Source: Amphibalanus amphitrite (taxonomy: Eukaryota > Arthropoda > Thecostraca > Balanomorpha > Balanidae). Taken from it: a stretch of 64,000 nucleotides of DNA. Shown here piece after piece: positions 5,702-62,778 of this stretch. The DNA lies in the NCBI RefSeq assembly GCF_019059575.1, contig NW_024881708.1:248001-312000 (forward strand). The letters run 5' to 3'. Below the pieces are notes generated by a model that made no database searches, was not told the DNA's origin, and saw only the letters and a program-made list of their open reading frames with translations. Every line of letters begins with the position of its first letter. Position 1 is the first letter of the stretch. The position numbers and the translations under genes were made by a program.

Positions 5702-6899
5702 TTAACCTTCCAGGCGGTGGGGGGGGGGGCATTTTTTTGCCCCCCCCCCTTTTAGTTTTTTCGATATATCTCGAGAACCACTGCGCCGATCGTCACCAAA
5801 CTTTCAGTACCCTCCCGGGAGCAGCTAGCGCACATGGTGACCAAAAATTTTTCCAAAGGCTATGATAGGTTGGCCGCTAATGACGTCAGAGTGACGTCAT
5901 TTTTGCCATTTTCGACCCAAAAAAAGGTTTCGCGGGAAGAGCTGTCAGGCCTACAGCTTTAGAGATACAGAAAAATGTTCTAGATATAAAAGGTGTGGAA
6001 TCAAAAGGGCTACAAAACTGCAATTTCGGTTTTTCGAATTTTTTGGATTTTAACCCCTAAAAATCAAAAAATAGATTTTTTGAATACAATAGCCAAAAAA
6101 TCCAAAAAGTTTTTTGAATTTCGAAAAACCGGAATATATGTGATAGTCCCTACCGTCTTCTATCTACATACCAAATTTGAGATCGATACCTCTTTTTTTG
6201 GCCAAGTTATAGCGAAAAAACTGTTCAAAATTGATAACGTCAAATTTTCAAACTCAATTTTTAGCAATTCCAGACCTCGTAGCGCAAAACAAAGACCACC
6301 ATTAGACTCCCCGTGACGATCTGCATCGAATCAATGCCCATTTTATGCAAAAATATCAACTTTGAAATTTGACCTTTTTTGACCTGACCTTGACCTGACC
6401 TCCACCAGAAAGTGACCTCAACCGTACCTGATGGTCTTATAACCAACACCATTGAGTTGGAAATGAAAAACTGGCCATAAAACATGCATCACATAACCTT
6501 AGTAAAGTTGGGCTCATGTGGTGACCCTTGGTGACCTTTGGTGACCTGACCTGTGACCTGACCTGGTATGACCAGTGACCTCTAATAGCAACATATGTAC
6601 TAGACAACTGACGCCTTATCGCTGATTTTCGACAAAATGCGTTTTACTCGATGTTATAGCGCTTTCCCTAGAAGCCCCGTGAACGGTGAAACATTTTATC
6701 TTTGACCTGACCTGTGACGTCATCGGTGACCCCGAGGTCAATGAAATTTAGTTTCTTTCGACAAATTTGACAGGGCTATCGAACGCCGTTTGAATTTTTC
6801 GGATCCGTCCAGTAGTTTCGGAGATACGGGGGGGGGGCAAAAAAATGCCCCCCCCACCGCGCGGAAGGTGGCTGGTAGGCCCACCGCCTGCCGGGTTAA
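5702..6899 (+). mobile_element. TTAA element, family A
   Basis: The left end TTAACCTTCCAGGCGGTGGG mirrors the right end, which reads TTAACCCGGCAGGCGGTGGG on the other strand. Both ends have TTAA and a subterminal G-run/C-run hairpin. The interior has two TGACGTCA palindromes (5881-5888, 5892-5899) and many TGACCT half-sites. From about 6050 to 6500 it matches the reversed interior of family F while the terminal repeats differ, so A and F share an ancestor. No coding capacity. Confidence 0.85.
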
Positions 6900-6926
6900 A
6901 GACGGTGGGTGTATGTATGTAACCTT

Positions 6927-9061
6927 TTAACCCGCGCGTGACTGGGGTATTCTCCATAACGCGATTTGCTGAGGGTGGGGGGCTCTCCAGAGCCCCCTCC
7001 TATCTCCGAAACTACTGGGCCGATCGTCAAAATTCAAACGGCGTCTGATAGCCCTGGAAAAACTGTTGAGCGGCGAAACCTATTTTTATTGACCTCGAGG
7101 TCACCGATGACGTCACAGCCCATAGGTCAGGTCAAATTCAAAATTATGAGTATTTTTGCTTGTTCACAATTTAGGCTCTGACCGCCGGCTGACAAGTCCG
7201 ATCAGACTCATTTTGTTTTACGCACTCTTTGATATAGCAGCCTTAGATACCCTGAGGGTACCGAACTTTTACTTCGAATTTTTCAGGTCAAGGCCAGGTC
7301 ATCCTAGGTCACGAAAATTGTATATCATGTATCGGTCACGCGACGCATGATTTATGGTCCATTTTACTGGTAGATTTCGAGAAATTGTCGTCTGTGTCAT
7401 TTGAGGTCATTTTCAGCTGAATTTACCGGAGGTCAGGTCACTTTCAGGTCAGAAAAGGTCAAATTTTGAAAATGAATTTTTTTCAACAAAAAAAGGTGCC
7501 TATCAGATGCAGTTTGAGCTCAGGAGCACGATGGTGCCATTTATGTTGCCTTGCGATGTTAAAAACGTACTGGAAAATGTCTTTGAAAAATACATAATTG
7601 TAAAATTTTGACAGTAATGCAAATAACATGGCTATTTTTTAACCCTCGCCCGCACATGCCATTTTCCCATCCTAGAACGCACATGGGGGGGGGGTGGTTG
7701 CCACCCCCCCCCCCCGCGCCATTTCGTTCCTGTTGGAGATAGAGCTTAGCAGTAAAGACCAAAAAGATTCTTTGGGAAGAGACGAATCCAATGATACCCA
7801 GTTTTACCTTCTCAGGTCAGTCATTGACCTTCCAGGTCAGGTCAAACTAAAAAATGTTGCTGTTTTGGGTCACCGTTGGATATCAAGTGTGCTGCTTATC
7901 AAATACCGATGACGATGCTGTTTTCTGGTGCCAAGCCAGCTAGAACCTCTTTGTCACACTACCCGACCAGAACTTTGCTGCTGAGGTCATTTCAGGTCAA
8001 GTTAGGTCAAGGTCAATTATATGTGTTTGTATGTCTGTGTGTGTCTGTGTGTATACTGATGTGTGCACCGATTGTTTTTGGGTCCATATTACATGAAATC
8101 ATGATCTGAGAAGCTTTTACCAAAAATGCAGTCAAAAAACTTCAAAAAAAGTAAATTCAGCTAGCCTAAAACGCAATTATCTTAGATGACCTAGGTTGAC
8201 ATTGACCCTGACCTTGACCCCTGTACATCGTCGAGCAACATGTTCCATGATAGGTGGGAGGTAAGACTGGCAAGAAAGGCCGAAATCAGGGTGTCAAAAG
8301 CTCATAAGGCCCATGGCAAACGCAAGATGTTGAGAATTGGCCATTTGGGTCATGACATGACCTGAAAAACAAGGTCATATCTCCGAAACCAAAAATCACA
8401 GAAACTTGAAATTTTCAGTGGACATCAAGAAAGGATAGAGGAGCAGCTATACGAAAAATCAGCCTTCTAGCTCTAAAAATGTTGAGTGCAGAGCAGAAAG
8501 ACTACCTGGGGGGGTGGCAACCACCCCCCCCCCCATGTGCGGGCGAGGGTTAAGATATTGGACTAAAACTTGCTAGAATAGGTAATGAGCGTGTGTTCTA
8601 TTACATATGATCCGGTTTTTGAGAAAAATCAAAAGCTTTTTGAAAAAATAAAAACAAATATATTTTTTCTGTAATAGTAAATAACTATTTTTCATAATTT
8701 TTGATTTTTTTAATTCGAGACAGTAGTTCGATACCTACGTGCATGTAGTCCACTGATGCAAAGAAATTGGATCTAGCTCTAAAACTGAGCTCTTGAGAGC
8801 GTTTGACGTAATTCAACATCTTGCTTCAAAATCGGCCGACATGTCATGACATGTCACTCTGACGTCATTTCCGGCCAAACTATAGTAGCTAAAAAGCTGA
8901 AATTTTAACACAAGGTGTCAAATTAAGACCGCTGAGGGTACAGCAAGTTTCGTGTTGATTCGTTGAACGGTTTAGAAAATATTGCCGAAAACGGGAGGGG
9001 TCTCTGTAGAGACGCCCCCTAACCCGCGCATGCCCCCCCCCCCCCGGCATGCGCGGGTTAA
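6927..9061 (+). mobile_element. TTAA element, family B, interrupted by a family C copy
   Basis: The left end starts TTAACCCGCGCGTG; the right end, on the other strand, starts TTAACCCGCGCATG. Between them lie the 5' module (ATCTCCGAAACTACTGGGCCGAT), TGACCTCGAGGTCA (7090-7103), TGACGTCA (7108-7115) and the usual 3' module. A complete C element (7639-8553) splits it. Without that insert B would be about 1.2 kb. The left and right terminal repeats agree only over the outer 14 bases or so, so the pairing is likely rather than certain. Confidence 0.7.
7639..8553 (+). mobile_element. TTAA element, family C, copy 1 (nested in B)
   Basis: It begins TTAACCCTCGCCCGCACATG and ends with the exact reverse complement of the shorter CCCTCGCCCGCACATG, with TTAA on both sides. 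G-run/C-run tracts lie just inside both ends. AGGTCAGGTCA, TTAGGTCAAGGTCA and reverse copies are present, along with a GT-rich stretch near 8025-8055. About 90 percent or more identical by eye to copies at 33195 and 47709. Confidence 0.9.
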
Positions 9062-9955
9062 CCCTATTAGTGGCAGGCTCCTGGCTACCCCTATTAGTGG
9101 CAGGGGGGGCTGTTTACGACCCCCCCTGATATCTCGAGATCTAACGGGCCGATTTTCAAAATTCAAACGGCATTCGATTTCGCTCAACGTGATCTACATT
9201 TCTAAAAAAAAATAAAAATTAAAAAATGTCAATAGGGGGGTAGAGGGGGGTAAAAACGGGCAAATTGCAGATACATTTTAGACTGTTTATCACGGCCAGG
9301 TTTCTGAACCAATCTTAACGCAACTTTTGCCGATCGATAGAGAATGAACCAGGAATTCACATGGATCCTAAAAATATGCATTTTCAAAAATCATAGGCGG
9401 ATACAGATGTAATTACTAATTATTCCCCAATATTCAGCACCTGGACGCGCCTATGATTTTAGGGGAAAACATCGCTTGTAATTGTTCACAAATACATGGT
9501 ATGGTGCATTTGATCGCTTTCTGGCAATGTAACTACTACGAAACCGCTCATCAAATGGTACTGTACATTTCAGTATGAACCCCCCTTTTTTGGACGCCTG
9601 GATCCGCCTATTATAGCAAAAACGTGTCAAAAGAGGATGCACAATAACTTTGTATATGTTATCACATGATACCTTTCATTCACTGTTCGTAAAACTGGTG
9701 CATACAGTTATAATATATCAGCATCGTGATCTTCGCCCAAATGACTCGCTTCACGAATAGGACCCCCCAATTCCCAGTGCTCTGGAGCCGCCCCTGGTAA
9801 AGTTATGAACTTGAAATTTTCAGGGAATGTGCCCAATTTAGTTTTAGGAAAAGTCAGAAAGTTTCAGCATCGTAGCTTTAGCGGTTCGGAGATATTCCCG
9901 AAAAACCTGAGGGGTGGATGAAAACAACCCTCCCCCCTGCCACTAATAGGGTTAA
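9058..9955 (+). mobile_element. TTAA element, family D, copy 1
   Basis: Left end TTAACCCTATTAGTGGCAGG; right end its reverse complement. It shares its left TTAA with the right end of B. A second copy lies at 30804-31702. The flanks of the two copies are nearly identical, but about 170 bases in the middle are unrelated. It has fewer AGGTCA sites than the other families. Confidence 0.9.
9393..9611 (+). repeat. Inner inverted-repeat segment within the D element
   Basis: ATAGGCGGATACAG (9393-9406) faces CTGGATCCGCCTAT (9598-9611). The interior 9409-9578 does not match the equivalent interior in the copy at 30804. This may be a small element nested inside D. Confidence 0.6.
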
Positions 9956-16102: not shown

Positions 16103-17273
16103 CTAACCCGCGCCCCGTTGGGCTCTGCCGAGCAACGCACCCCGTTGGGGGGGGCCATTTTGCCCCCCCCCCCTAAGATCTCGAGAACCACGCAACCTAG
16201 CGACAAGCGGCAAACGGTGTTGGATAGCCCTATCAGGGAACTACCTTGTGACCCAATTTTATTGACCTAGGTCAAACTGATGACGTCACAGGTCAGGTCA
16301 AATGTCCAATTTTCACCGTTTACAGGCATTTCAAGGAATGCGTTGTAAAATCGAGTAAAATGCATTTCATTGAAAATCATCGATGGGGAAATGTTCTTCA
16401 AACACATATTTTGCTATTTGAGGTCACTGATACCAGGTCAGGTCACAGAGGTCAGGTCACGGGGGGGTCACAATATGAAAGTGTCGTGTGATGCATGTTT
16501 TATGGTCCATTTTACATGACAAATGCGATTATGTGGGTCAGGCAGCCTTTGGGGCCAGCTTAGGTCACGTTTTGGTCAAGGTCAGGTCAAGGTCAGGTCA
16601 AATTAGGTCAAATTTCAAAGTTAATATTTTTGCATAAAATGGGTATCGAATCGATGCAGCTCGTCATGGGGAGTTCAATGGTGGTCTTTGTTTTGCCGTA
16701 CGTGGTCTAGAATCGCTAAAAATTGAGTTCAAAAATTTGACGTCATCATTTTTGAACAGTTTTTTCGCTATAACTTGGCCAAAAAACGAGATATCGATCT
16801 GAAATTTGGTATGTATATAGGAAAACTCAGGAACTATCACATATTTTCCGGTTTTTTTCGAAATTCGGAAAAATTTTGGATTTTTTTTTAGTTTTTCCAA
16901 AAAAATCGATTTTTTGAATTTTTTGGGGTCAAAATCCCAAAATTTTGAAAATCAGAGATAGCAGTTTTGTAGCGCCGCTTTTTGTCTACTAGACCATATA
17001 AAGAACTTTGAAATTGCTTGATAACTGTAGATTTGGTGAGCGTTTCAAGATTGCATGTTTTTTGCTCATTTTTGCTCGAACATGACCTCAGTTTGACCTC
17101 AATAACTCCTGACCTAAGGTGACCTAAGACTTGAAATTTGGTGTGAAGGTGTCAAATTGATGACCGGGAAGGTACTGAAAATTTGGCGGCGCTGCGCGCC
17201 GCCGTTTTCATGCTATTCAGGAAAAACCACAGGGGGGCCCAAAATGCCCCCCCCCCAACGGGGCGAGGGTTAA
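16103..17273 (+). mobile_element. TTAA element, family F, copy 1
   Basis: The left end CTAACCCGCGCCCCGTTGGG pairs with the right end (CCCTCGCCCCGTTGGG on the other strand) and TTAA; the left TTAA has decayed to CTAA. The 5' module is ATCTCGAGAACCACG. TTGACCTAGGTCAA is at 16262-16275 and TGACGTCA at 16281-16288. A half-site cluster at 16561-16610 includes two perfect TCAAGGTCA sites (16576-16584, 16587-16595). The 3' module and second C-run end the element. Other copies: 51031, 54358, 61594. Confidence 0.9.
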
Positions 17274-17963: not shown

Positions 17964-19187
17964 TTAACCCGGCACCGCCTGGGCTATTTCCGTACCCACG
18001 ACAGCCTGGGGGGGGGGGGTCGGATCCGACCCCCCCTGTTATCTCGAGAACCAATGGTCGTATCGAGCCCCGCGAGGCGGCGTTCAAAAGGTCTCTACGA
18101 GACCTTCCCATAGCACTCTTAAGATTTTAAGATTGAGGTCAACTTTCGGGTCAAGGTCAGGTCAAAGGTCAAATTCAGGGGTTTTGCATGATTAGGCTTA
18201 CGGACAGCGGAATCGATAGCTGCTGCTCGAAACTCACCACAAATGACCTCAAAGACCTAGTGAAGGTACCATGTGCGTATAGTGGTCATACTAAGTACGG
18301 GTCAAGGTCAGGTCAGGTCACGAAAGGTCACGGTTTTCACTTTCTGCTACATGGGCGTGCGACACATGTTTTATGGCTTATTTTTCACGCCAAATCCGAT
18401 GGTAATGGTTATATGTGACCCCAAGTCACTGTGCTGGTGATAAGTGTGCATTGAAAGCATAAAAAATCGTTTATACCATACATAACTAAACGAGGGCTAA
18501 GAAAAAAAGACAATTTTTCAACTTTTTATTTTTGACAAAAAAATGCACTTTTCTAGACGAACTTTGTCCCAGGAATCTAGTGGTGCCATTTGTTTTCACA
18601 TGCAATGTTCAGAAGTGCCTCTAATTCGCGAAAATGCTTATGACGTCACCATGCCCTATGCATGTTGGAGCTATTTTTTTACAATTTGGGGTCAAAAATC
18701 AAGATAGAAAGTTGAAATTTTGGACATCTAATGTTCCAATAGAGCTTTATAACATATATTCCGGTTCTTTGGAAATTCTCAAAATTTTCGATTTTATCAG
18801 CTGTTTTCCAAAAAATATAGTTTTTTGAATTTTTAGGGGTGAAAAACGCATTTTATGGAAAATCCGAGATAGCCATTTTAAAGAACTCGTTGAGCTGCGT
18901 CTTTTCAAGTCCTTAATTTGCAATTTTCCTAACACCTTGATTTTTGGCGATTTTTTAAACATTTACCATTTTTTGACTGAAAACGCCATGTAGTTACATC
19001 ACTAAAATCGATATATCTCAAAAATGTTTGAAAATTTTTTCTTAAAAATTGCACAGGAGACGTCAAATTGATGGGGAAGAAGGTATGCCAAGTTTCAAGT
19101 TGATAGCGCAAGCGGTTCATGAGTTATTCAAGAAAAACGGAGGGGGGGTCGGATCCGACCCCCCCCCCCCAGGCGGTTGCGGGTTAA
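17964..19187 (+). mobile_element. TTAA element, family I
   Basis: Left end TTAACCCGGCACCGCCTGG; right end on the other strand TTAACCCGCAACCGCCTGG. Both subterminal hairpins carry the palindrome GGGTCGGATCCGACCC (near 18017-18034 and 19146-19163). The body has AGGTCAGGTCA runs (18150-18170, 18305-18330). The 3' module resembles that of F and B. Only one copy in the window. Confidence 0.85.
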
Positions 19188-20377: not shown

Positions 20378-20379
20378 TA

Positions 20380-21657: not shown

Positions 21658-21659
21658 TA

Positions 21660-30803: not shown

Positions 30804-31702
30804 TTAACCCTTTTAGTGGCAGCGGCAGGCTCCTGGCTACCCCAATTAGTGGCAGGGGGGGGGCTGTTCACGACCCCCCCCCCCTGATATCTCGAGATCT
30901 AACGGGCCGATTTTCAAAATTCAAACGGCATTCGATTTCGCTCAACGTGATCTACATTTCTAAAAAATAAAAATTAAAAAATGTCAATAGGGGGGGGGGG
31001 GTAGAGGGGGGTAGAAACGGGCAAATTGCAGATACATTTTAGATTGTTTATCACGGCCAGGTTTCTTAACCAATCTTAACGCAACTTTTGCCGATCGATA
31101 GAGAATGAACCAGGAATTCCCATGGATCCTAAAAATATGCATTTTCAAAAATCATAGGCGGATACAGATCATTGAGATTGGGGGTACACAAAAAGTATAG
31201 TAAATAAGGTTTTTGTTGGTACTGTTTCTAAAAAGGGTGGTAATGGTCTTGTTATGTTACAATTTTCTTATGAGAGAACGACTACAATTGTATTGGTCAT
31301 GCATAGGCGGTGTTAGGGCACCTATGTTGGGAGGTAAAACATAACCCCCCTTTTTGGACGCCTGGATCCGCCTATTATAGCAAAAACGTGTCAAAAGAGG
31401 ATGCACAATAACTTTGCATATGTTATCACATGATATCTTTCATTCACTGTTCGTAAAACTGGTGCAGCATCGTGATCTTCGCCCAAATGACTCGCTTCAC
31501 GAATAGGACCCCCAATTCCCAGTGCTCTGGAGCCGCCCCTGGTAAAGTTATGAACTTGAAATTTTCAGGGAATGTGCCCAATTTAGTTTTAGGAAAAGTC
31601 AGAAAATTTCAGCATCGTAGCTTCAGCGGTTTCGGAGATATTCCCGAAAAACCTGAGGGGTGGATGAAAACACCCCCCCCCCCCTGCCACTAATAGGGTT
31701 AA
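30804..31702 (+). mobile_element. TTAA element, family D/E, copy 2
   Basis: Left end TTAACCCTTTTAGTGGCAG; right end CTGCCACTAATAGGGTTAA. Nearly identical to 9058-9955 on both sides of a central segment (31170-31343) that is unrelated to the equivalent segment there. The inner inverted repeat ATAGGCGGATACAG / CTGGATCCGCCTAT is kept (31154-31167, 31362-31375). Confidence 0.9.
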
Positions 31703-33194: not shown

Positions 33195-34101
33195 TTAACC
33201 CTCGCCCGCACATGCCATTTTCCCATCCTAGAACGCACATGGGGGGGGGGGGTTGCCACCCCCCCCCCGCCATTTCGTTCTTGTTGGAGATAGAGCTTAG
33301 CGGTAAGGACCAAAAAGATTCTTTGGGAAGAGACGAATCCAATGGTACCCAGTTTTACCTTCTCAGGTCAGTCATTGACCTTCCAGGTCAGGTCAAACTA
33401 AAAATATTGCTGTTTTGGGTCACCGTTGATATCAATTGCGCTGCTTATCATATACCGATGACGATGCCGTTTTCTGGTGCCAAGCCAGCTAGAGCCTCTT
33501 TGTCACACTACCCGACCAGGTTTTTGCTGCTGAGGTCATTTCAGGTCAAGTTAGGTCAAGGTCAATGATATGTGTTTGTATGTCCGTGTGTGTCTGTGTG
33601 TATACTGATGTGTGCAACGGTTGTTTATGTGTCCATATTACATGAAATCATGATCTGAGAAGCTTTTACCAAAAATGCAGCCCAAAAAACTTCACAAAAA
33701 GTAAATTCAGCTTGCCTAAAACGCAATTATCTTAGATGACCTAGGTTGACCTTGACCCTGACCTTGACATCTGTACATCGTCGAACAACATGTTCCATGA
33801 TAGGTGGGAGGTAAGACTGGTAAACAAGGCCGAAATCAGGGTGTCAAAAGCTCACAAGGCCCATAGCCAACGCAAAATGTTGAGAATTGGCCATTTGGGT
33901 CATGACATGACCTGAAAAACAAGTTCATATCTCCGAAACCAAAAATCACAGAAACTTGAAATTTTCAGTGGACATCGAGAAAGGATAGAGGAGCAGCTAT
34001 ACGAAAAATCAGCCTTCTAGCTTTAAAAATGTTGAGTGCAGAGCAGAAAGACTACCTGGGGGGGTGGCAACCCCCCCCCCCCATGTGCGGGCGAGGGTTA
34101 A
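33195..34101 (+). mobile_element. TTAA element, family C, copy 2
   Basis: TTAACCCTCGCCCGCACATG to its inverse, TTAA on both sides. It matches 7639-8553 almost base for base outside the homopolymer runs. It contains AGGTCAGTCATTGACCT, AGGTCAGGTCA and TTAGGTCAAGGTCA. Confidence 0.92.
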
Positions 34102-35758: not shown

Positions 35759-36798
35759 TTAACCCTCGCCGGACCTATTGGTTTTCTACATACGCGCCGG
35801 CCGAGGGGGGGGGGGCGGGTACGACCCCACCTCGCTGTTTCGCCCCTGGTGGAGCTAGCGCGTCGCGGAAAAAACGAGCGTGTGCGCCGATACCAGACGC
35901 AGAGATTGGTACCCGATTTTAAGGTCCTAGGTCAACCGGTGACCTCTGAGGTCAGGTCAAGTGCCCCAAGGCACGGTTCAATTTTTGGTGAATAACTTCG
36001 CAAAAAACGTTCGCAGAGCTGCGATTTTGGCAGCATCGTGTTCGCCTTGCTCAGGCGCTTCGAATGATATACTTTTTGTTTTGGTTAGGTCAACTTAGCG
36101 TGTTGACCTCAGGTTACGGTCAGGTCATCGCCCCCAGGTCACGAAGTTGGTCGAAAGAGGTCATGTTGCATATTATTCGATTTGACAGGTCTTCCTGAGT
36201 CCATTGGTGGCTTTCCCGACTCGCTAGCTCAATGTGGTCGGGAGTTATTGATGAAAAACTAATATGACCTTGATGACGTCATAAATGACGTCACGCAAGG
36301 TCAACATTGCAAAAGTGACGCATCTAACCTTGCAAGGAGTGCATCAAATCACGATTTTGTGTGCTTGAGATAGTTGGAGATCGTTCCCGGCGCCAGAATA
36401 GCAATTTTCATTTTTCCCCATTGACTTATAATTTGGTGACCTGTCACGAAAATGACCTGACCTCATATGACCTTTAGGAAAAATCCGAGAAATTCAAGTT
36501 GTGAGACTCGTAATGGATACTAGATCCTGCAAGTTTCATTTCCCTGTGAAAGCTCCTCTGGCAGTGAGGGCGTTGCGAAGTTGCGACATCTAAAGACCGT
36601 GCAGAGGTTCACTTATGACGTCATAGGTCAGTGACCTGACCTGACCTGAAAATGCGGCTGGTTTAAAAAGATTCAGCTTGAATCAAAGGTCAGGTATGCC
36701 AAGTTTCAGCTCTCTAGCACCAGCGTGTTCGAAGCTATCGCGAAAAACCCTGTGGGGGGGGGGCGGCACCCGCTCCCCCCTCGGCCGGCGAGGGTTAA
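35759..36798 (+). mobile_element. TTAA element, family H, copy 1
   Basis: Left TTAACCCTCGCCGG, right CCGGCGAGGGTTAA. The left end has an extra segment of about 30 bases between two CGCCGG words that the right end lacks. The 5' module is GGTGGAGCTAGCGCGTCGCGG. CTAGGTCA, GAGGTCAGGTCA and two TGACGTCA palindromes 12 bases apart (36274-36281, 36286-36293) lie in the body. G/C hairpins are at both ends. Other copies: 38998, 48642, 53700. Confidence 0.92.
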
Positions 36799-38997: not shown

Positions 38998-40035
38998 TTA
39001 ACCCTCGCCGGACCTATTGGTTTTCTACATACGCGCCGGCCGAGGGGGGGGGGCGGGTACGACCCCCCTCGCCGTTTCGCCCCTGGTGGAGCTAGCGCGT
39101 CGCGGAAAAAACGAGCGTGTGCGCCGTTACGAGACGCAGAGATTGGTACCCGATTTTAAGGTCCTAGGTCAACCGGTGACCTCTGAGGTCAGGTCAAGTG
39201 CCCCAAGGTACGGTTCAGTTTTTGGTGAATAACTTCGCAAAAAACGGCCGCAGAGCGCCGATTTTGGCAGCATCGTGTTCGCCTCGCTCAGGCGCGTCGA
39301 ACGATATACTTTTTGTCCGGGTCAGGTCAACTTGGGGTGTTGACCTCAGGTCAAGGTCAGGTCAGCACCCCCAGGTCACGAAGTTTGTCGAAAGAGGTCA
39401 TGTCGCATATCATTCGATTCGGCAGGTCTTCCTGAGTCCATTGGTGGCTTTTCCGACTCGCTAGCTCAATTTGATCAAGAGTTATTGACGAAAAACTAAT
39501 ATGACCTTGATGACGTCATAAATGACGTCACGCAAGGTCAACATTGCAAAAGTGACGCATCTAACCTTGCAAGGAGTGCATCAAATCACGATTCTGTGTG
39601 CTTGAGATAGTTGGAGATCGTTCCCGGCGCCAGAATAGCAGTTTGAATTTTTCCCCATTGACTTATAATGGTGAGGTCACGAAAATGACCTGACCTCATA
39701 TGACCTTTAGGAAAAATCCGAGATATACAAGTTGTGAGACTCATAATGGATACTAGATCCTGCAAGTTTCATTTCCCTGTGACATCTCCTCTGGCAGTGA
39801 GGGCGTTGTGAAGTTGCGACATCTGAAGACCGTGCAGAGGTTCACTTATGACGTCATAGGTCAGTGACCTGACCTGACCCAAAAATGCGGTTGGTGTCAA
39901 AAGATCCGGCTTGAATCAAAGGTCAGGTATGCCAAGTTTCAGCTATCTATCGCCAGCGTGCTCGGAGCTATCGCGAAAAAAACCCTATGGGGGGGGGGGC
40001 GGCACCCGCCCCCCCCCTCGGCCGGCGAGGGTTAA
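38998..40035 (+). mobile_element. TTAA element, family H, copy 2
   Basis: Nearly identical to 35759-36798, with the same terminal repeats, paired TGACGTCA and half-sites. It sits inside a minisatellite; joining the two flanks at one TTAA gives GGCGCCGATTTAACAGGAAGG-like sequence that matches the array unit, so this is a clean insertion with TTAA duplication. Confidence 0.95.
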
Positions 40036-40425
40036 CAGGAAGGTGCCAGTGGATAGGATGGCGGCGATCAACACGAGGGCGCCAATAGGTAGAAGGGCCC
40101 CGATTAGCATTCAACAGGAGGGACTAGGAAACCGATAGGTAAGAGGGCGCCAATGGCTAGAAGGGCGGCACTCAACAAGAGGGTGCCAAAAGGGAGGAGG
40201 GCGGCCATCAAAATTTCACATGAGGGCGCAATAGATAGGAGGGCGCCAATAATTATGAGGGCGCCGACCAGCAGAAGGGTAGCAATGTGTAGCAGGGTGG
40301 CGACCTACAGGAGGGCGCCTTCGGGACTCGGGTGAGAGGGCGCCTATTTACAGGAGAGCACCAATAGGTAGGAGTACACCGATCAAATGAGGGCACCAGT
40401 GGGCAGGAAGGCAGCGATCCTATAG
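40036..40425 (+). repeat. Minisatellite of about 30-36 bp units, right part
   Basis: Same units as 38700-38997, more diverged to the right. Confidence 0.8.
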
Positions 40426-46499: not shown

Positions 46500-46554
<55 letters not shown>

Positions 46555-47708: not shown

Positions 47709-48645
47709 TTAACCCTCGCCCGCACATGGGGGGGGGGGGGTGGTTGGCACCCCCCAGGTAGTTTTTTTGCTCTGCACTCAACATTTTTAGAGATAGAAGC
47801 CTGATTTTTCGTATAGCTGCTCCTCCATCCTTTTTTGATGTCCACTGAAAATTTCAAGTTTCTGTGAATTTTGGTTTCGGAGATATGACCTTGTTTTTTC
47901 AGGTCATGTCATGACCCAAATGACAAATCCTCAACATCTTGCGTGGGCCTTGTGAGCTTTTGACACCTTGATTTCGGCCTTTTTTGCCAGTCTTACCTCC
48001 AACCTATCATGGAACATGTTGTTCGACCATGTACAGAGGTCAAGGTCAGGATCAAGGTCAACCCAGGTCAGCTAAAATAATTGCGTTTTAGGCAAGCTGA
48101 ATTTACTTTTCGTGAAGTTTTTTGACTGCATTTTTGGTAAAAGCTTCTCAGATCGTGATTTCATGTAATATGGACACATAAACACTTGGTAGGTACACAC
48201 TACACACATAAGTACGAGTAAACACACAGACACACACAGACATACAAATATCACTGACCTTGAACTAACTTGACCTGAAATGACCTCAGCAGCAAAAATC
48301 TGGTCGGGTAGTGTGACAAAGAGGTTCTAGCTGGCTTGGCACCAGAAAACGGCATCGTCATCGGTATATGATAAACAGGCAACAGCGCACTTGATATCCA
48401 ACGGTGACTCAAAACAGCAACATTTTTTAGTTTGACCTGACCTGGAAGGTCAATGACTGGCCTGAGAAGGTAAAACTGGGTATCATTGGATTCGTCTCTT
48501 CCCAAAGAATCTTTTTGGTCTTTACCGCTAAGCTCTATCTCCAACAGGAACGAAATGGCGCGGGGGAGGGGGGGGGGGTGGCAACCACCCCTCCCCCCTT
48601 GTGCGTTCTTAGGATGGGAAAATGGCATGTGCGGGCGAGGGTTAA
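47709..48645 (-). mobile_element. TTAA element, family C, copy 3 (reversed)
   Basis: TTAACCCTCGCCCGCACATG at 47709 and its inverse at 48645, body in reverse orientation compared with 7639 and 33195. Shares its right TTAA with the H copy that follows. Confidence 0.9.
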
Positions 48646-49683
48646 CCCTCGCCGGCCGAGGGGGGGGGGGGCGGGTGCCGCCCCCCCCCCATAGGGTTTT
48701 TTCGCGATAGCTCCGAACGCGCTGGCGATAGAGAGCTGAAACTTGACATACCTGACCTTTGATCCAAGCCGCATCTTTTGATACCAACCGCATTTTTGGT
48801 TCAGGTCAGGTCACTGACCTATGACGTCATAAGTGAACCTCTGCACGGTCTTCAGATGTCGCAACTTCGCAACGCGCTCACTGCCAGAGGCGATGTCACA
48901 GGGAAATGAAACTTGCAGGATCTAGTATCCATTATGAGTCTCACAACTTGTATATCTCGGATTTTTCCTAAAGGTCATATGAGGTCAGGTCATTTTCGTG
49001 ACCTCACCATTATAAGTCAATGGGGAAAAATGAAAACTGCTATTCTGGCGCCGGGAACGATCTCCAACTATCTCAAGCACACAGAATCGTGATTTGGTGC
49101 ACTCCTTGCAAGGTTAGATGCCTCACTTTTGCAATGTTGACCTTGCGTGACGTCATTTATGACGTCATCAAGGTCATATTAGTTTTTCGTCAATAACTCC
49201 CGATCAAATTGAGCTAGCGAGTCGAGAAAGCCACCAATGGACTCGGGAAGACCTGCCGAATCGAATGATATGCAACATGACCTCTTTCTACAAACTTCGT
49301 GACCTAGGGGTGCTGACCTGACCTTGACCTGAGGTCAACACCCTAAGTTGACCTGACCCGGACAAAAAGTATATCATTCGACGCGCCTGAGCGAGGCGAA
49401 CACGATGCTGCCAAAATCGCGGCTCTGCGGCCGTTTTTTGCAAAGTTATTCACCAAAAACTGAACCGTACCTTGGGGCACTTGACCTGACCTCAGAGGTC
49501 ACCGGTTGACCTAGGACCTTAAAATCGGGTACCAATCTCTGCGTCTCGTAACGGCGCACACGCTCGTTTTTTCCGCGACGCGCTAGCTCCACCAGGGGCG
49601 AAACGGAGAGGGGGGGGGTCGTACCCGCCCCCCCCCCTCGGCCGGCGCGTATGTAGAAAACCAATAGGTCCGGCGAGGGTTAA
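48642..49683 (-). mobile_element. TTAA element, family H, copy 3 (reversed)
   Basis: Reverse orientation copy of 35759-36798, including both TGACGTCA sites (around 49148-49167). TTAA on both sides, the left one shared with C copy 3. Confidence 0.92.
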
Positions 49684-50127: not shown

Positions 50128-51034
50128 TTAACCCTCGCATGTGTGCGGCGTTTGCCAGCTTCTAATGTGTAGGGGGGGGGGGGGTCGGTTGGACCCCCCC
50201 CCTTGCCGTTTGGCCCCTGATCGAGCTAGAGCTTCGCGGAAAAAACGAGCGTGTTGCCCGTGACGAGAGGAAGCCGATGATACCCAATTTTAAGGTCCTA
50301 GGTCATTGGTTGACCTTCCAGGTCAGGTCAATGACCCAAAGTCGGGAAAATCGGGACCTGTTAGAAAGTCGTAAAGTGTGGCTGTTAAGGGGTTTTTCGG
50401 GGTGCTGATCACGAATATCGTGTTAGTTTTGATCACAGATGATGTCTTTAAGCATTTAGACCAGGTCGGGTCAGGTCAGGTCAGGTCAACCAGTAGGCGT
50501 CGTGACGGGTATTCGTAGTACGTGTCAACCGCCTCTGACAGCTTCGTAACATGTTACGAAGGCACCAAAACTACTTCGTAAATGTTCAAATGGTTGCTAA
50601 ATTCGAATTCAGCTCAAAAAACTAGCCTAGAAACATGTACAGCTCGAAAAAGTGAACCGAGGTCACCCGAGGTCACCAAAGGTCAATGACCTGACCTGAC
50701 CTTCAGGTGACCTTGACACCCACCCTAATGCATGGAAGCAACATCAAATCACATGTTTGAACGTTTGAAACCACGAAAAGCTTGCAAACGCGCGGCTAAT
50801 GCGAGCCGACATACGCAGAATCGCGATTCCGGCCAAACATGGTCTCGGAAAAGAGGTCACATGTCAAAGGTCATTTGGGTCAGGGTCATGAAATTTTCAG
50901 GGTAGGTGTAAAATTGATCAATGTGAGGGTACTGAAAGTTTCGTCGCGATCGGCCGCTTTTTACGCGAGTTATTCGCGAAAAACCATGGGGGGGTCCATC
51001 CGACCCCCCCCCCCCCTACACATGCGAGGGTTAA
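50128..51034 (+). mobile_element. TTAA element, family G, copy 1
   Basis: TTAACCCTCGCATGTGTGCG at the left; CTACACATGCGAGGGTTAA at the right. The 5' module (GATCGAGCTAGAGCTTCGCGG...ACGAGCG) is a relative of that in H. A tight AGGTCGGGTCAGGTCAGGTCAGGTCA-type cluster is at about 50464-50488. The right TTAA is shared with F copy 2. Confidence 0.88.
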
Positions 51035-52184
51035 CCCGCGCACCGTTGGGGTCTGCCGAACAACGCGCCCTGCTGGGGGGGGGCAATTTGCCCCCCCCCT
51101 AAGATCTCGAGAACCACGCAACATAGCGACAAGCGGCAAACGGTGTTGGTTAGCCTCAACAGGGAACTAACTACCTTGTGTCCCAATTTCATTGACCTAG
51201 GTCAAACCGATGACGTCACAGGTCAGGTCAAATGTCGAATTTTCACCGTTTACAGGCAAGAAATGCGTTGTAAAATCGAGTGAAATGCATTTCAATGAAA
51301 ATCATCGATGGGGAAATGTTCGTCAAACACATATTTTGCTATTTGAGGTCACTGATACCAGGTCAGGTCACATAGGTCAGGTCGCTGAGGGTCACAATAT
51401 GAAAATATCATGTGATGTATGTTTTAAAGCCCATTTTATATGCCAAATGCGATTATGTGGGTCAGGCAGCCTTTGGGGTCAGTCTAGATTATGTTCTGGT
51501 GAAGGTCAGGTCAAGGTCAGGTCAAATTAGGTCAAATTTTAAAGTTGATATTTTTCCATAAAATGTGTATCGATTCGATGCAGCTCGTCACGGGGAGTTC
51601 TATTGTGGTCTTTGTTTTGCGCTACGTGGTCTAGAATTGCTGAAATTGAGTTCAAAAATTTGACGTCATTAATTTTGAACAGTTTTCTCGCTATAACTTG
51701 GTCAACAAATGAGGTATCAATTTCAAATTCGGTATGCATATAGAAGAGCGCAGGGCCTATCACATATACCTATTCGATTCGTTTTTTTTTTAATTCGGAA
51801 AAATGGGATTTTTTTACGTTTTTTTTAAATTTTAGTGGGTCTAAATCCCAAAATTTTGAAAATCCGAGATAGCAGTTTTGTAGCGCCGCTTTTTGGCTAC
51901 ATGACCACCATATACCTAAAGAACTTTGAAATTGCTTGGTAACTGTAGCTTTTGTAAGCGTTTCAAGATTTCATGTTTTTTGCTCATTTTTGCTCGAACA
52001 TGACCTCAGTTTGACCTCAATAACTCCTGACCTAAGGCGAACTAAGACTCGTAATTTTGTGTGAAGCCAGGTGTCAAATTGATGCCCGGGAAGGTACTGA
52101 AAATTTGGCGGCGGCCGTTTTCTTGCTATTCAGAAAAAACACGGGGGCCAAATTGCCCCCCCCCCCCAGCGGGGCGAGGGTTGA
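51031..52184 (+). mobile_element. TTAA element, family F, copy 2
   Basis: Left TTAACCCGCGCACCGTTGGG; right end ...GGGGCGAGGG then TTGA (decayed TTAA). Body aligns with 16103-17273 throughout, including TTGACCTAGGTCAA and TGACGTCA near 51193-51219. Confidence 0.9.
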
Positions 52185-53530: not shown

Positions 53531-54357
53531 CTTTTCTTCAGGGGCGCTCTTCTTGGCTGTATCTGTTCTTACCAATAACTAAAGCAAATCGAATGTATAA
53601 CAAAAAAGGCATACCTCAAACACAGTTTTATTCACATCCGCTCATGTGCATACTTTTTTGACCTATACCTTCTCGCATCATAATATATCACTTCAGTGCT
53701 TAACCTTCAACGGAATTTTGGGTTTTCTGCATATACCCCGGCCGAGAGGGGGGCGATTACGACCCCTCTCCGTCTTTTTGTCCCTAATTGAGCTAGCGCC
53801 TTGCGGATAAAACTGAGCGCGTGCGTCGTATGAGATGCAGCAACTGGTACCCGAGTTGAATGTCTCAGGTCAACTGATAAACTCTGAGGTCAGTATAAGT
53901 GCTCCAATTCGCGGGATCGGTTTTTGGTAAGCAACTTCACCATAAGTGGTTACAGAGCCAAGATAATGGCACCATCGAGTTTTGCATGCTCAAGCGCGTC
54001 GAATAGTATACGCTTTGTTTTTGTTGAGGCCAATTTAAGGTGTTCACTTCAGGTCATGTCAGGGCAGAGCCACTCAGGCCACGAGGCTGGCTCAAGGAGG
54101 TCATATCGCTTATTCGATTCGGTAAGTCCTCACAAGTCCACTGTGGCTTCCCGACACGCCAGCTCAATTTGATCGGGACTTTTTGGTGAAAACTCCTGTG
54201 ACCTTAGTGACGTCATAAATGAAGTCGCCTAACTTTAAGAATGGAAAAGTGAATGCTGGGGCTTGCAAAGATTGTATGAAGTCGCGAATTAATGCGCTTG
54301 AGACAGCTTTAGATGGCTCCCGGCGCCAAAATAACAGCTTTCATATTTCCCAATTGA

Positions 54358-55541
54358 TTAACCCGCGCCCCGTTGGGCTCTGCCGAGCAACGCGCCCCGT
54401 TGGGGGGGGGGGCATTTTGCCCCCCCCCCCTAAGATCTCGAGAACCACGCAACCTAGCGACAAGCGGCAAACGGTGTTGGATAGCCCTATCAGGGAACTA
54501 CCTTGTGACCCAATTTTATTGACCTAGGTCAAACCGATGACGTCACAGGTCAGGTCAAAGGTCCAATTTTCACCGTTTACAGGCATTTCAAGAAATGCGT
54601 TGTAAAATCAAGTAAAATGCATTTCATTGAAAATCATCGATGGGGAAATGTTCTTCAAACACATATTTTGCTATTTGAGGTCACTGATACCAGGTCAGGT
54701 CACAGAGGTCAGGTCACTGGGGGGTCACAATATGAAAATGTCGTGTGATACATGTTTTATGGCCCATTTTACATGACAAATGCGATTATGTGGGTCAGGC
54801 AGCCTTTGGGGCCAGCTTAGGTCACGTTTTGGTCAATGTCAGGTCAAGGTCAGGTCAAGGTCAGGTCAAATTAGGTCAAATTTCAAAGTTAATATTTTTG
54901 CATAAAATGGGTATCGAATCGATGCAGCTCGTCACGGGGAATTCAATGGTGGTCTTTGTTTTGCCGTACGTGGTCTAGAATCGCTCAAAATTGAGTTCAA
55001 AAATTTGACGTCATCATTTTTGAACAGTTTTTTTCGCTATAACTTGACCAAAAAACGAGATATCGATCTGAAATTTGGTATGTATATAGAAGAGCGCAGG
55101 GACTATCACATATATTCCGTTTTTTTCGAAATTCGGAAAAATTTTGGATTTTTTAAAGTTTTTCTAAAAAAATCAATTTTTTGAATTTTTTGGGGTCAAA
55201 AACCCAAAATTTTGAAAATCCGAGATAGCAGTTTTGTAGCGCCGCTTTTTGTCTACTAGACCATATAAAGAACTTTGAAATTGCTTGATTACTGTAGATT
55301 TGGTGAGCGTTTCAAGGTTGCATGTTTTTTGCTCATTTTTGCTCGAACATGACCTCAGTTTGACCTCAATAACTCCTGACCTAAGGTGACCTAAGACTTG
55401 AAATTTGGTGTGAAGGTGTCAAATTGATGCCCGGGAAGGTACTGAAAATTTGGCGGCGCTGCGCGCCGCCGTTTTCTTGCTATTTAGGAAAAACCACAGG
55501 GGGGGCAAAATGGCCCCCCCCCCCAACGGGGCGAGGGTTAA
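54358..55541 (+). mobile_element. TTAA element, family F, copy 3 (nested in H copy 4)
   Basis: Intact terminal repeats with TTAA on both sides. Very close to copy 1 at 16103. TTGACCTAGGTCAA and TGACGTCA near 54520-54546; several TCAAGGTCA sites at 54836-54870. Confidence 0.92.
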
Positions 55542-55759: not shown

Positions 55760-56587
55760 TTAACCTTCGCACTAATGATGTTCGACACTGAGAGGGTGTC
55801 GAACAGACCTCCTACCCTCAGTTTTTCGCAAATAACTCTCGCAAAAAGCGGCTGATTACGACGAAACTTTCAGTACCCTCGAGTTAATCAATATTACGCC
55901 TACCCTATAATTTGTATGACCTTGACTAAAAAAAAACCTTTGACTTGTGACCTGTTTTCCGAGACCATGTTTGGCCGGAATGGCGTTTTGGAGTATTTTG
56001 AGTAGAGCGCTTTTATTGTCTTTTTGTGACTTTAAGCGATCAAACATGTGAAAGGATGTTGATCCCATGGATTCTAGTGGGTATCAAGGTCACGTGAAGG
56101 TCAGTCAGGTCACTGACCTTTGATGAACTTCGTTCACTCTTTCGAGTTTTACATGTTTCTAGGGTAGATTTTGGAGTTGATTTCGCATTTAGAAACCGTT
56201 TGAACATTTAAGAAGTAGTTTTGGTTCCCTCGTAACATGTGACCTGACCTGACATGACCCGACATGGCCTAAATGCACGAAAACATCATCTGTGATCAAA
56301 ACTAACTTGAATTTCGTGATCAGCACCCCGCAAAACCCTATAACAGCTTCACTTTACGAAGCTCTAACAGGTCCCGATTCCCCGACTTTTGAGCTATATT
56401 GACCTGTCAACCAATGACCTAGGACCTTAAAATTGGGTGTCATCGGCCTCCTCTCGTCACGGGCAACACGCTCTTTTTCCGCGAAGCTCTATAGCTCGAT
56501 CAGGGCTGAACGGCAAAGGGGTCCAACGGACCCTTCTTCCCCCTTTACGATAGACGCTGGCAAAACACCAATGTGGGCGAGGGTGAA
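55760..56587 (-). mobile_element. TTAA element, family G, copy 2 (reversed, decayed, nested in H copy 4)
   Basis: TTAACCTTCGC at the left; GGCGAGGGTGAA at the right. The body is the reverse of 50128-51034 (for example GAAACTTTCAGTACCCTC and ACCATGTTTGGCCGGAATGGC). Internal deletions and many substitutions. Confidence 0.75.
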
Positions 56588-56755
56588 AATACAGCTGCTG
56601 TCATAAAAATTCAGCTTGAATCAAAGGTAAGGCTTGCCAAATTTCAGCTCTTGCAGCTATCAACAAAAATAAATATGTGGAGGCGGCACCCGCCTCCCCG
56701 CCGCCCCCCCCCCCCCCACCCCCTCTCCTCTCGGCCACTGCCAGCGAGGTTTTAA

Positions 56756-59584: not shown

Positions 59585-60750
59585 TTAACCTTCGCCCCAG
59601 TGCAGTGGGGGAGGGCATATGTTACCATCCTGTCGCGTTTTTTTGCGTGCGAATAAAAAACCGCGGCGCTACCCGCTTGGAGTAGCTTTCTGTACATCAA
59701 TTTTGGACAATGTGTGAAATTTTTACCTCAGGTTATGTCAGGTCAGGTCACCAGGTCAAATTAACTGACCAAGCCTAAAAAAGTTTGCAATCATACCCAG
59801 CCTGCAGTGTTTGTCAGAGAGGTTTTAAACTTGGTGGGTTGCATGATGTTATGGGCGCCTATAATTTGTATATCTCGGATTTTTTATATCCGTGACCTAA
59901 GGTCAGGCCAGTAGCGTGACCTTTCCCCTATAAGTCAATGGAGAAAAACGAAAATGCCTCTAGATCCGTGTGTACGCGTAGGAACAGTCCAAATATTTCA
60001 GAATCACAATGATTTGGACCACCCGTGACCACCAAGGTGTCTTTTTGCTGATAGCCTCTAGAAAGGTCATCCGAGGTCATTGGAGGCTACAATCAGAGAG
60101 TTATTTTTGCCAATAACTCTCGATTGGAAAGAGATAGAACGCTGGGGATGGCCTCATTGTGTTTGTCTTGCCGAGACGCATCGACTGATATGCAACATGA
60201 CCTTTTACGGTGAGGTCATGACCTTGACCTGAGGTCAAATTTTCAAGTTGACCTTTCAAGGTCATATTATAGTTCATTCGACGCGTCTCGGCGAGAGGAA
60301 CACGATTCTGGCAATAGAAATGTCATGGCTTTCCTAAGTCAAAAGTTATTGTCGAAAAACACTTTTCGTAAAAACAGTTATTTTTTATGTTTTTGCCCTC
60401 TGGAGGCTAAACCATTGACCTGAGGTCATTTTTGATGATAACCTTAAAACAAAAGAAGACTTCAAAAGCTATCGATTGCTTTTCTCAGCATTTTTGTAGC
60501 TATCATAGTTCCTGAGATAATGGCATGTTTTCTGAAAAATATAATGACAATTCGCAAATTTTGACCTTTGATGACCTCTGGTGACCCCAATATTGCTCTA
60601 AGATGAAAAAAATGACAGAAATACTTTCAAACTTACGCATCGAACGCTATCGACTGCTTTTTACTGCGTCTTTTTAGCCCTCTTAGTTTTTGAGTTAGAG
60701 GTGGGTGGTAACATATGCCCCCCCCCCCCCCCTCACTAGGGCGAAGTTGG
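59585..60750 (+). mobile_element. TTAA element, family J
   Basis: Left TTAACCTTCGCCCCAGTG; the right end on the other strand reads CCAACTTCGCCCTAGTG, so the right TTAA has decayed to TTGG. AGGTCAGGTCA is at about 59738-59749, with many TGACCT words in the right half. C-run hairpin at the right. One copy here; parts occur at 49684 and 19690. Confidence 0.8.
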
Positions 60751-61593
60751 CTGAGACCGCCACTGGTGACTGGGGAGCGGGTTTACCTGCATATGCTCGC
60801 ATGTTTTTAGTTGAGGTGCTTCGACCTGATAACTAAACAGTGTTGTGCATATATTTACACGGGTTTTTAGGTTGCAAAAGACACCATATGCAAGTGTCGA
60901 AAGGCCAACCCTCGCCAGGCCAAGGGGTTGATACAAACCTCCTAAGGTTATAGCGTAAGAACCTAAGGTAAAGATCAAACCTGACCGGAAAAGGTCATGT
61001 TGGATGTCAGTCGATTCGAATGGTCGACCTGAACACATCTAAGGTGCTTTCATCGCTCTAGTCTGCCTCTATCAAAAGAGATTACCAAACAACTGCTGAG
61101 AACCTTTTATGACCTGAGGTGACCTCAGGGACATGAGAAGGGGTCACGGATCCTTGTTTCCGCTACAGTATGTCATTTTTACTTGTAAGTCGGTGTTGAG
61201 AGTGAATTTACAGTGGCGATCGTCCAAAATACACGCCTTTCAATTTTCTCCCAATGACTTATACCTAAAAGAGTGCGTGCAAAATTGGTGTGATGTTAGG
61301 TCTCCGATATCAAAATTTCGAGATATACATTTTTTACATACTGTTATACCCTTATCGATCTCTGAAAGTTTCAAAGCGATTGTTCAGCCACTGTAGCTCT
61401 GAGTAGCATTCCAACTTTTTTCTGAGTTAAGGTCACTTGACGTGACCTGGTGACCTGACCATAAGCGACCTAGGTCTGAAATTTTCACAACATGTGGGGA
61501 AAAGATGTATGAACATATGTGCCACAAACGGCGGTGCTTTTATTGATCTAATGGAGCACAATATTCTCACAAGGATGAGTTATCAGTTATGTT
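60751..61593 (+). repeat. Decayed element remnant (family L), copy 2, with spacer
   Basis: AACCCTCGCCAGGCCAAGGGG near 60907 may be its left end. From 60960 to 61540 it aligns with 19590-20370. The right end is lost before the F element. Confidence 0.55.
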
Positions 61594-62778
61594 ATAACCC
61601 TCGCCCCGCTGGGGGGGCCAATTTGGCCCCCTGTGGTTTTTCCTGAATAGCAAGAAAACGGCGGCGCGCAGCGACGCCAATCTTTCAGTACCTTACCGGG
61701 CATCAATTTGACACCTCCACACAAAATTTCAAGTCTTAGCTCACATTAGGTCAGGAATTATTGAGGTCAAACTGAGGTCATGTTCGAGCAAAAATGAGCA
61801 AAAAACATGAAATTTTGAAACGCTCACCAAAGCTACAGTTAGGTACTTAGCAATTTCAAAGTTTTTTATATGGTCATGTAGAGGAAAGACGGCGCTACAA
61901 AACTGCTCTCACGGATTTTCAAATTTTTTGGATTTTGACCCCCAAAAATTCAAAAAGTTGATTAAACGCAAAACAAAATCCAAAAGTTTTTTTGAATTTC
62001 TAGAAAAACCGGAATATATGTGACAGTTCCTGCGCTCTTCTATCTACATACCAATTTTTAGATCGATACCTCTTTTTTGGCCCAGTTATAGCGAAAAAAA
62101 AACTTCAAAATTGATGACCTCAAATTTTTGAACTCAATTTTTGGCAATTCTAGAGCCCGTAGCGCAAAACAAATACCACCATTGAACTCCCCGTGACGAG
62201 CGGCATCGAATCAGTACCCATTTTATGCAAAAATATCAACTTTGAAAATTGACCTAATTTGACCTTACCTTGACCTGACCTTGACCTAACCTTCACCAGA
62301 ATATATTCTAAACTGACCCCAAAGGCTACCTGACCCACATAATCGCATTTGACATATAAAATGGACCATAAAACATGTATCACATGATATTTTCATATTG
62401 TGACCCTCAGTGACCTGACCTCTGTGACCTGACCTGGTATCAGTGACCTCAAATAGCAAAATATGTGTTTGGCGAACAATACCTACCCCATCGATGATTT
62501 TCAATGAAATGCATTTTACTCGATTTTACAACGCATTTCTTGAAATGCCTGTAAACGGTGAAAATTCGACATTTGACCTGACCTGTGACGTCATCGGTTT
62601 GACCTAGGTCAATGAAATTGGGTCACAAGGTAGTTCCCTGTTGGGGCTATCCAACGCCGTTTGCCGCTTGTCGCTATGTTGCGTGGTTCTCGAGATCTTA
62701 GGGGGGCCAAATTGCCCCTCCCTCCCCCCCCCCCAGCAGGGCGCGTTGCTCGGCAGACCCCAACGGGGCGCGAGATAA
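61594..62778 (-). mobile_element. TTAA-type element, family F, copy 4 (reversed), flanked by ATAA
   Basis: The ends read ATAACCCTCGCCCCGCTGGG and, on the far side, CCCCAACGGGGCGCGAGATAA. Body is the reverse of the other F copies with TTGACCTAGGTCAA and TGACGTCA near 62586-62612. Both flanks are ATAA instead of TTAA. Confidence 0.88.

Follow-up and report, generated by a model that had tools for sequence, protein, structure and literature searches.

PiggyBac-type elements of the barnacle Amphibalanus amphitrite with shifted G/C palindromes and evenly spaced RGGTCA half-site arrays

Introduction

TTAA targets and CCC-type ends are typical of piggyBac-type transposons, while AGGTCA is the half-site of nuclear receptors. 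In the piggyBac of Trichoplusia ni (T. ni), the left end (LE) and right end (RE) are asymmetric (LE35/RE63) through an insertion and a duplication in the RE, and paired cysteine-rich domains bind a palindrome, the internal repeat at bp 17-33, with the end asymmetry itself being called enigmatic (PMC7351741). Moreover, the 3' internal domain of this transposon is described as having an enhancer-like action (PMC1783651). Here, we describe a group of related TTAA elements in a 64,000-nucleotide stretch (hereafter the window) of the 807.6-Mb assembly of Amphibalanus amphitrite, namely positions 248,001 to 312,000 of contig NW_024881708.1 (G000:C211:248001-312000). This barnacle is a major fouling organism, and barnacle settlement and moulting are hormone-controlled. 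We consider it likely that the elements, whose families are denoted by letters, are non-autonomous piggyBacs spread by transposases of the kind encoded by four autonomous lineages (P1 to P4), and that their arms are conserved cis-regulatory arrays.

Results

Two end types with one geometry

The elements have two distinguishable ends. At the LE, a TTAA-CCY tip is followed by a short family-specific motif and then, from base 13-15, by a palindrome composed of a G-run and a C-run. The RE starts in the same way and includes an insert that closes with a second copy of the family motif, after which the palindrome lies ~27 bp deeper than in the LE. The G/C hairpin that the original prediction had placed inside the ends is seen as this palindrome at both end types. 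Between LE and RE, the palindrome is displaced by 27 bp in 12 of 15 families, by 26 bp in G, and by 28 bp in H and M (family B, which has an odd LE, stands outside this comparison), and the family motif of the LE and its second copy in the RE share an identity of 0.83 within families (15 comparisons) as against 0.34 between families (210 comparisons). Among 80 ends from the window and further loci, the G-run begins at base 13-15 in 35 of 36 LEs and at base 40-42 in 34 of 44 REs, with none of the 80 starting between 17 and 37. This sample was picked by an end-finding NTAACCY rule and includes a few duplicates and odd cases, and the ~27-bp spacing is established on such sampled ends rather than genome-wide; TTAA is present at 74 of the 80, though the rule itself fixes the TAA. 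The elements have the CCY tips and inverted ends of the piggyBac superfamily, while their LE/RE asymmetry, with its insertion and duplication, and their internal palindromic repeat are of the T. ni type. Modules of the LE could be aligned across 15 families and those of the RE across 16, and profiles derived from them find all 16; these matches are partly by construction, the profiles being built from the sequences that they then match (only the left end of D was excluded). By eye, the lengths of the G-run and C-run differ among copies of one family (~6-16 bases in the sampled elements) and the loop stays family-specific, a variation that fits the expectation for slippage.

Autonomous relatives and parentage

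A genome search with PF13843, in which 116 of 232 candidates were scored and the surroundings read for some of these, revealed four transposase-coding lineages with PF13843 matches and the same ends, P1 to P4, and thereby the kind of full-length relative that had been supposed to exist elsewhere in the genome. P1 (L025:2215-6185; 3,971 bp, frame at 3550-5571), frames of which are found inside elements with these ends at L023, L025, L026, L027, and L028, matches PF13843 with an E of 2.2e-69 and aligns with T. ni piggyBac (PDB ID: 6x67) with an E of 2e-78 over residues 90-639, including the catalytic aspartate positions and the C-terminal Cys/His residues. Its alignment with piggyBat is confined to residues 94-539. 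P2 (L036:533-5255) has a 659-aa frame, P3 (L019:1625-8200) a coding part split over two frames of 123 and 504 aa, and P4 (C702:33509-39481) a 683-aa open frame. Each of P1 to P4 has a DDE_Tnp_1_7 transposase within an element with the same ends and a cysteine-rich domain in its C-terminal tail, the DDD triad being read by alignment for P1 only, and in each of them the frame is followed, on its 3' side, by the end that bears the insert. In a tree of 11 motif-filtered proteins (from 38 loci) plus T. ni piggyBac, the P-lineage transposases form a group with a support of 1.0 that excludes T. ni as well as three proteins of a different local type, though the clade limits are provisional, as most other piggyBacs of the genome lie outside this tree. 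Relatives at 57-80% identity (P0003-P0006) were also recorded. Other local piggyBacs (L001-L003, L005-L009, and L013-L015) were seen to have CCCATTA-type tips with no G/C palindrome at those tips.

For some of the families, the arms of these autonomous elements could be recognized directly. The third F copy of the window (F3) matches the left arm of P4 with bp 1-1024 (89% over 1,031 aligned bp, or ~1,010 bp of arm) and the right end of P4 with its last 131 bp (92% over 133 aligned bp), while the main blocks of M, N, and G are 88-96% identical to the arms of P3. Moreover, two blocks of L025:1271-2218 (392 and 317 bp) match P1 at 90-91%, and the ~245 bp that separate them are of a different sequence. 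Pairwise matches to P1 or P2 (E up to 1e-3) were obtained for seven of eight window families (A, C, D, F, G, H, and I, that of D being mostly G/C run), and not for B; J was not among the families entered. By these alignments, family F is a deletion derivative of P4, and F, G, M, and N correspond to P4- or P3-type arms from which the gene is missing. The elements are short, non-coding, and high-copy, as expected of miniature inverted-repeat transposable elements (MITEs), with F derived from P4 and M, N, and G from P3, and the earlier inference that the elements are MITE-like passengers of a piggyBac is supported both by the same-ended transposase elements and by the descent of F. Nesting was also observed at L027:1896-9273, where four elements are involved and an R-family element contains adjoining P1 and F copies and a Q copy.

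Copy number and TTAA duplication

Left ends of family F (at most two mismatches) number 2,035 and 2,040 on the two strands, 4,075 in total, as against 0 and 0 for the reversed control. RE-type ends of any family were counted 23,595 times on the plus strand genome-wide, the reversed pattern five times. Because the F left ends are equal on both strands, strand equality was assumed for the REs, and by extrapolation there would be ~47,000 elements in all, or, at ~1 kb each, ~6% of the genome. A reverse-strand RE count of 103,676 was taken as inflated by overlapping variable-gap matches and was not used. By eye, more than 20 end types can be told apart among the 100 places listed.

An empty site, for which the original prediction had proposed a search, was found in the M1 element at L016, which has one TTAA where the copy at L019 carries K2 between two TTAAs. 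TTAA is likewise duplicated at a piggyBac of another type, which interrupts a second copy of family I at L014. Within the window, neighbouring elements have a single TTAA in common at 9058-9061, 48642-48645, and 51031-51034, and a shared single TTAA was also noticed at the junctions L025:2215-2218 and L027:6128-6131. The target duplication of the piggyBac superfamily is thus seen in one paralogous empty site and in abutting copies that share a TTAA, the latter looking as if new copies insert in the TTAA of resident ones.

Half-site abundance and conservation

AGGTCA occurs 6-21 times per element in all 24 non-D elements, whereas shuffles have means of 0.32-0.63 and a maximum of 4, so the half-sites are above chance. 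The body of half-sites described in the original prediction holds for the non-D elements, but D/E is without half-sites and TGACGTCA is found in 16 of 27 elements counted, with none in C, D, G, M, N, and R. In the 43.7 kb of window DNA outside the masked elements, AGGTCA occurs 61 times vs 22.5 expected, which is about tenfold less dense than in the elements. In seven local piggyBacs of different types, AGGTCA was counted 0-4 times in 2.7-3.3 kb vs 1.2-2.0 expected, and the four CCCATTA-tip piggyBacs counted (L001, L002, L007, and L014) have 0, 1, 4, and 2, respectively, vs 1.2-1.9 expected. In P1 to P4, the half-sites amount to 6.7-14.7 per kb in the arms vs 0-0.5 in the frames, with nested copies contained in two of the arm sets.

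Divergence at half-site bases was compared with divergence elsewhere by sliding the half-site mask along the element and counting the positions with an equally low value. Among copies of a family, half-site bases diverge less in F (0.025 vs 0.072; 5 of 897 mask shifts as low), C (0.014 vs 0.049; 24 of 641), H (0.024 vs 0.073; 18 of 766), and G/M/N (0.006 vs 0.067; 0 of 633). The same is found between families, as in C vs G (0.141 vs 0.520; 0 of 641) and F vs A (0.094 vs 0.295; 0 of 910), with equally low shifts also being few for F vs B (2 of 910), F vs O (0 of 910), and H vs G (3 of 764). The best conserved words are those of overlapping half-site chains, although alignment slippage in such tandem chains could favour them. 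It had been allowed at the outset that shared ancestry might account for the half-site excess; because half-sites in most comparisons diverge less than neighbouring positions, the excess is not merely inherited. On balance, this pattern of substitution indicates selection on the half-site clusters in the source elements.

Spacing of the clusters and a 10-bp rhythm

Clusters of half-sites and TGACGTCA have a best common period of 175 bp in seven arm sets from six lineages, and none of 5,000 random placements is as strong. This test used one representative per lineage (P2 gave two arm sets), which weakens the view that the spacing is mere shared ancestry, though the choice of sets was made with the pattern already known. 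The clusters also keep fixed distances from the tips: measured from the RE tip, the last cluster is 186±4.6 bp away in every one of the 15 families examined, and measured from the LE tip, the first is 148-197 bp away in all but I (14 of 15). Nine of 10 ends not used before fit this spacing, or four of five when only new families are counted.

Alternatively, the regular spacing could be a relic of tandem duplication, in which an arm unit of ~170-187 bp with its half-site cluster was repeated and no chromatin function is involved. We regard this as quite possible, though somewhat short of probable. Here, the units are similar outside the motifs in P1 (z up to 107), in the right arm of P2 (z of 24.6), and in some H units (z of 7), and modules recur weakly inside P1, P2, and H2. 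However, there is little unit similarity in the left arm of P2 (best z of 2.5) or in the interior of F3 (best z of 3.5), where the spacing is equally regular, and duplication alone leaves the lower divergence of the half-sites unexplained.

Another explanation is that the clusters are phased to nucleosomes, such that stretches of the arm that favour nucleosomes would take turns with exposed linkers holding the half-sites, and each new copy would bring its own chromatin layout. The ~175-bp spacing and the fixed distances of the end clusters are in its favour, as is a periodicity of AT dinucleotides between the clusters, since a 10-bp pattern of A/T (WW) dinucleotides is a nucleosomal signal (PMC6735720). 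This periodicity has a single peak, at 10.0 bp within the range of 5-30 bp, and gives a band z of 5.6 in nine pooled arm sets and of 2.6 in the pooled hold-outs T, J, and S (0 of 100 shuffles in either case). Taken singly, F (4.1), G (3.3), the P2 left arm (2.5), H (2.4), and I (2.0), and among the hold-outs S (3.9) and G copy 2 (2.0), have the higher z values, but the P2 right arm (1.6), K (1.5), R (0.6), the P1 left arm (-1.3), T (1.4), the P3 left arm (1.0), and J (0.0) are not significant. As for the controls, there is no signal in DNA outside the elements (-1.1) or in the frames of P1 (-0.2) and P2 (0.0), although D (1.2 and 2.0) and the arms of other piggyBacs (1.6) lean the same way, so that the signal is not exclusive. 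Moreover, the spacing in P1 is a plain tandem duplication of a ~187-bp unit. The rhythm and the spacing, as read from the DNA, are compatible with phased nucleosomes without proving them, and we find phasing as the explanation rather unlikely. Doubtful to a slightly greater degree is the wider proposal that this piggyBac clade encodes its own chromatin layout, in which nucleosome-favouring DNA would alternate with linkers of selected RGGTCA/TGACGTCA clusters, their phase fixed from both tips, and tens of thousands of copies would plant hormone-receptor-type modules genome-wide.

Form of the half-sites

Pairs of half-sites, scored as direct repeats (DR), are distributed as DR(-1) 57, DR4 39, DR5 20, DR0 13, DR1 7, DR2 2, and DR3 1, with chains of three inflating DR4. 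The RGGTCA half-site is found in all but D/E and is the enriched unit of what may be receptor-type sites. The arrangement seen most often, an overlapping 5-bp repeat, is not that of a classical receptor dimer.

Binding of the half-sites by the transposase would have a parallel in piggyBat, which uses repeated subterminal GCGGGA motifs (PMC11707139), and the arms of P1 to P4 all contain half-sites. However, the D/E elements appear to have moved without any, and the clusters run through whole element bodies rather than just the end regions, so we reject such a role as a general rule and consider it improbable altogether. A simple (GACCT)n or telomere-like TCAGG pentamer repeat is similarly disfavoured and very unlikely, for despite the 57 overlapping pairs, the 45 chains of 2-5 units, and the conservation of chain words, AGGTCA is enriched outside the chains (135 vs 6-36 for nine printed one-base neighbours and 13-35 for four other rotations), the highest neighbour being GGGTCA (36), as the RGGTCA receptor consensus predicts.

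Proposed mechanism

Several observations weigh against the elements being piggyBac derivatives with conserved regulatory arms. With regard to parentage, the frame of P3 is broken, the P1 copies at L023 and L026 are without the cysteine-rich domain, the left and right motifs of P1 itself agree at just 5 of 7 bases, there is a single (paralogous) empty site for elements with the G/C palindrome, and no element with a transposase frame emerged as the parent of A, B, C, D, H, I, or J. With regard to the arrays, D/E shares the ends yet has no AGGTCA in three of three copies, and the commonest spacing is the overlapping 5-bp repeat, followed by 10-11 bp, so that receptor dimer sites of the classical kind do not predominate. 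As to conservation, the comparisons among I copies and among K copies fell short of significance (100 of 950 and 197 of 650 shifts, respectively), the O-Q pair has no extra half-site conservation (identity of 0.888 vs 0.898), and tests confined to isolated half-sites either lack power or come out negative (F, 0.125 vs 0.065; F-B, 0.750 vs 0.463; H-G, 0.500 vs 0.503).

Even so, we favour non-autonomous piggyBacs with regulatory arms as the likely account, and the following sequence of steps can be proposed. By analogy with T. ni piggyBac, a transposase dimer would bind the tips, and its paired cysteine-rich domains, given the position of the palindrome, would bind the G/C palindrome, whose asymmetric spacing may let one LE pair with one RE. 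P-type transposases would then excise the element and insert it at a TTAA in a cut-and-paste manner. Host proteins may bind the RGGTCA/TGACGTCA clusters ~175 bp apart, and the bound clusters could raise transposase expression or keep the element accessible, with the arms acting as putative enhancers for which the T. ni piggyBac arm is a precedent. Because D/E apparently moved without half-sites, these seem dispensable for movement and would help at most with expression or access. The clusters, then, may be seen as a conserved regulatory array, possibly a nucleosome-phased one.

Elements of the window

The original prediction listed 19 copies covering ~20 kb, and every start in that list is indeed an element end or the remnant of one, the coverage agreeing with the summed element lengths. 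Two end types were mixed in the list, however, as 5702, 47709, 48642, 55760, 59585, and 61594 are LE starts and the remaining 13 are insert-bearing REs. All copies had been said to begin after TTAA, to which those at 16103 (CTAA) and 61594 (ATAA) are exceptions, and what had been given as separate B and C starts is corrected to a B element with a C copy nested inside it. Both ends were found in 15 of the 19 copies (A, B, three C, two D/E, three F, G, three H, and I), including one F copy with a degraded RE, while one further F copy has a decayed LE and three copies (G, H, and J) are partial (Table 1).

Table 1. Coordinates of the elements in the window. The strand is + when the element runs from LE to RE, i.e., in the transposase direction of its autonomous relatives.
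Element	Window position	Strand	Remarks
A, full	5702..6899	+	LE 5702; RE with 27-bp insert 6899; 15 half-sites, 3 TGACGTCA
B, full	6927..9061	-	Split by nested C copy 1; RE 6927, LE 9061; 12 half-sites
C copy 1	7639..8553	-	Within B at TTAA; both ends with TTAA; 12 half-sites
C copy 2	33195..34101	-	Both ends with TTAA; 12 half-sites
C copy 3	47709..48645	+	Adjoins H copy 3, shared TTAA 48642-48645
D/E copy 1	9058..9955	-	Adjoins B via shared TTAA; same end type; 0 half-sites
D/E copy 2	30804..31702	-	0 half-sites
F copy 1	16103..17273	-	RE flank CTAA; 19 half-sites
F copy 2	51031..52184	-	LE decayed; adjoins G copy 1 via shared TTAA; 16 half-sites
F copy 3 (F3)	54358..55541	-	Matches arms of autonomous P4
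F copy 4	61594..62778	+	RE degraded; LE flank ATAA; 18 half-sites
G copy 1	50128..51034	-	Main blocks 90-95% identical to P3 arms; 16 half-sites
G copy 2	55760..56600	+	Degraded; end approximate, by eye
H copy 1	35759..36798	-	20 half-sites
H copy 2	38998..40035	-	Flanked by ~36-bp tandem repeat stretches; 21 half-sites
H copy 3	48642..49683	+	21 half-sites
H copy 4	53700..54357	-	RE side only; ends abruptly at F copy 3
I, full	17964..19187	-	9 half-sites
J, left part	59585..60700	+	60700 is not a mapped right end

Several other features were noticed. The imperfect ~36-bp tandem repeat that flanks H copy 2 (window 38698-38928 and 40045-40226) is a candidate local record of an empty site. At window 4900-5440, imperfect repeats of a ATCTCGAGAACGGCTGGACCGAT-like phrase resemble the RE module by eye, and the end scan gave no surrounding element end; an open frame at window 1343-2521 resembles, by eye alone, a beta-1,3-galactosyltransferase-type gene. 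In addition, L017:8959, L027:329, and L002:258 have TTAACCATTA... or TTAACCTGG... ends followed by TGATGACGTCATCA, and are perhaps another TTAA family around the TGACGTCA palindrome.

Comparison with known systems

Going by the sequences, the end layout of the barnacle elements is the same as in T. ni piggyBac, while the end sequences themselves differ. Both have TTAA, a DDD transposase with a C-terminal cysteine-rich domain, LE/RE asymmetry, and a palindrome beside the tip, as described for the T. ni structures (PDB ID: 6x67 and 6x68; PMC7351741). In contrast, the barnacle palindrome consists of a G-run and a C-run that vary in length, the shift amounts to ~27 bp vs 28 bp in T. ni, the arms are rich in RGGTCA, the cysteine-rich tail is longer, and many families are found in one genome. 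With their one end geometry, these many tip-divergent families amount to a natural mutagenesis series for piggyBac end asymmetry. A subterminal arm with enhancer-like action, as proposed here for the barnacle arms, is known from the 3' internal-domain activator of piggyBac, though the latter is 172 bp long with 83% AT and its description mentions no RGGTCA in the passages on that domain (PMC1783651).

In A. amphitrite itself, a survey of piggyBacs gives intact elements of 2,708-4,732 bp with transposases of 506-645 aa, and because of these size ranges P1 and P2 may be among them; unlike our set, MITEs were excluded there, and the terms 'hairpin' and 'sub-terminal' are absent from its main text (PMC10813416). 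The coral CMITEs are similar in being piggyBac MITE families with differing terminal inverted repeats, a common internal sequence, and tandem arrays, but they are ~100 bp long, have another internal sequence, and come with no half-site arrays in the account given of them (PMC2872659). Another resemblance is that to the DR2 retinoic-acid elements of Alu, where a transposable element also multiplies nuclear-receptor-type half-sites, although these are Alu repeats with classical DR2 sites as opposed to piggyBac arms with clusters (PMC1785376).

Each of the ingredients is already known by itself, namely piggyBac MITEs, receptor half-sites carried by transposable elements, and the piggyBacs of A. 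amphitrite. No description of such half-site elements came up among the open-licence papers that the literature searches listed. As a new variant, the barnacle elements combine a high-copy group, G/C palindromes, a common ~27-bp asymmetry across many tips, and conserved, evenly spaced RGGTCA arrays. If the arms do bind receptors or order nucleosomes, this would be an example of a selfish element selecting, and then spreading, regulatory sequence.

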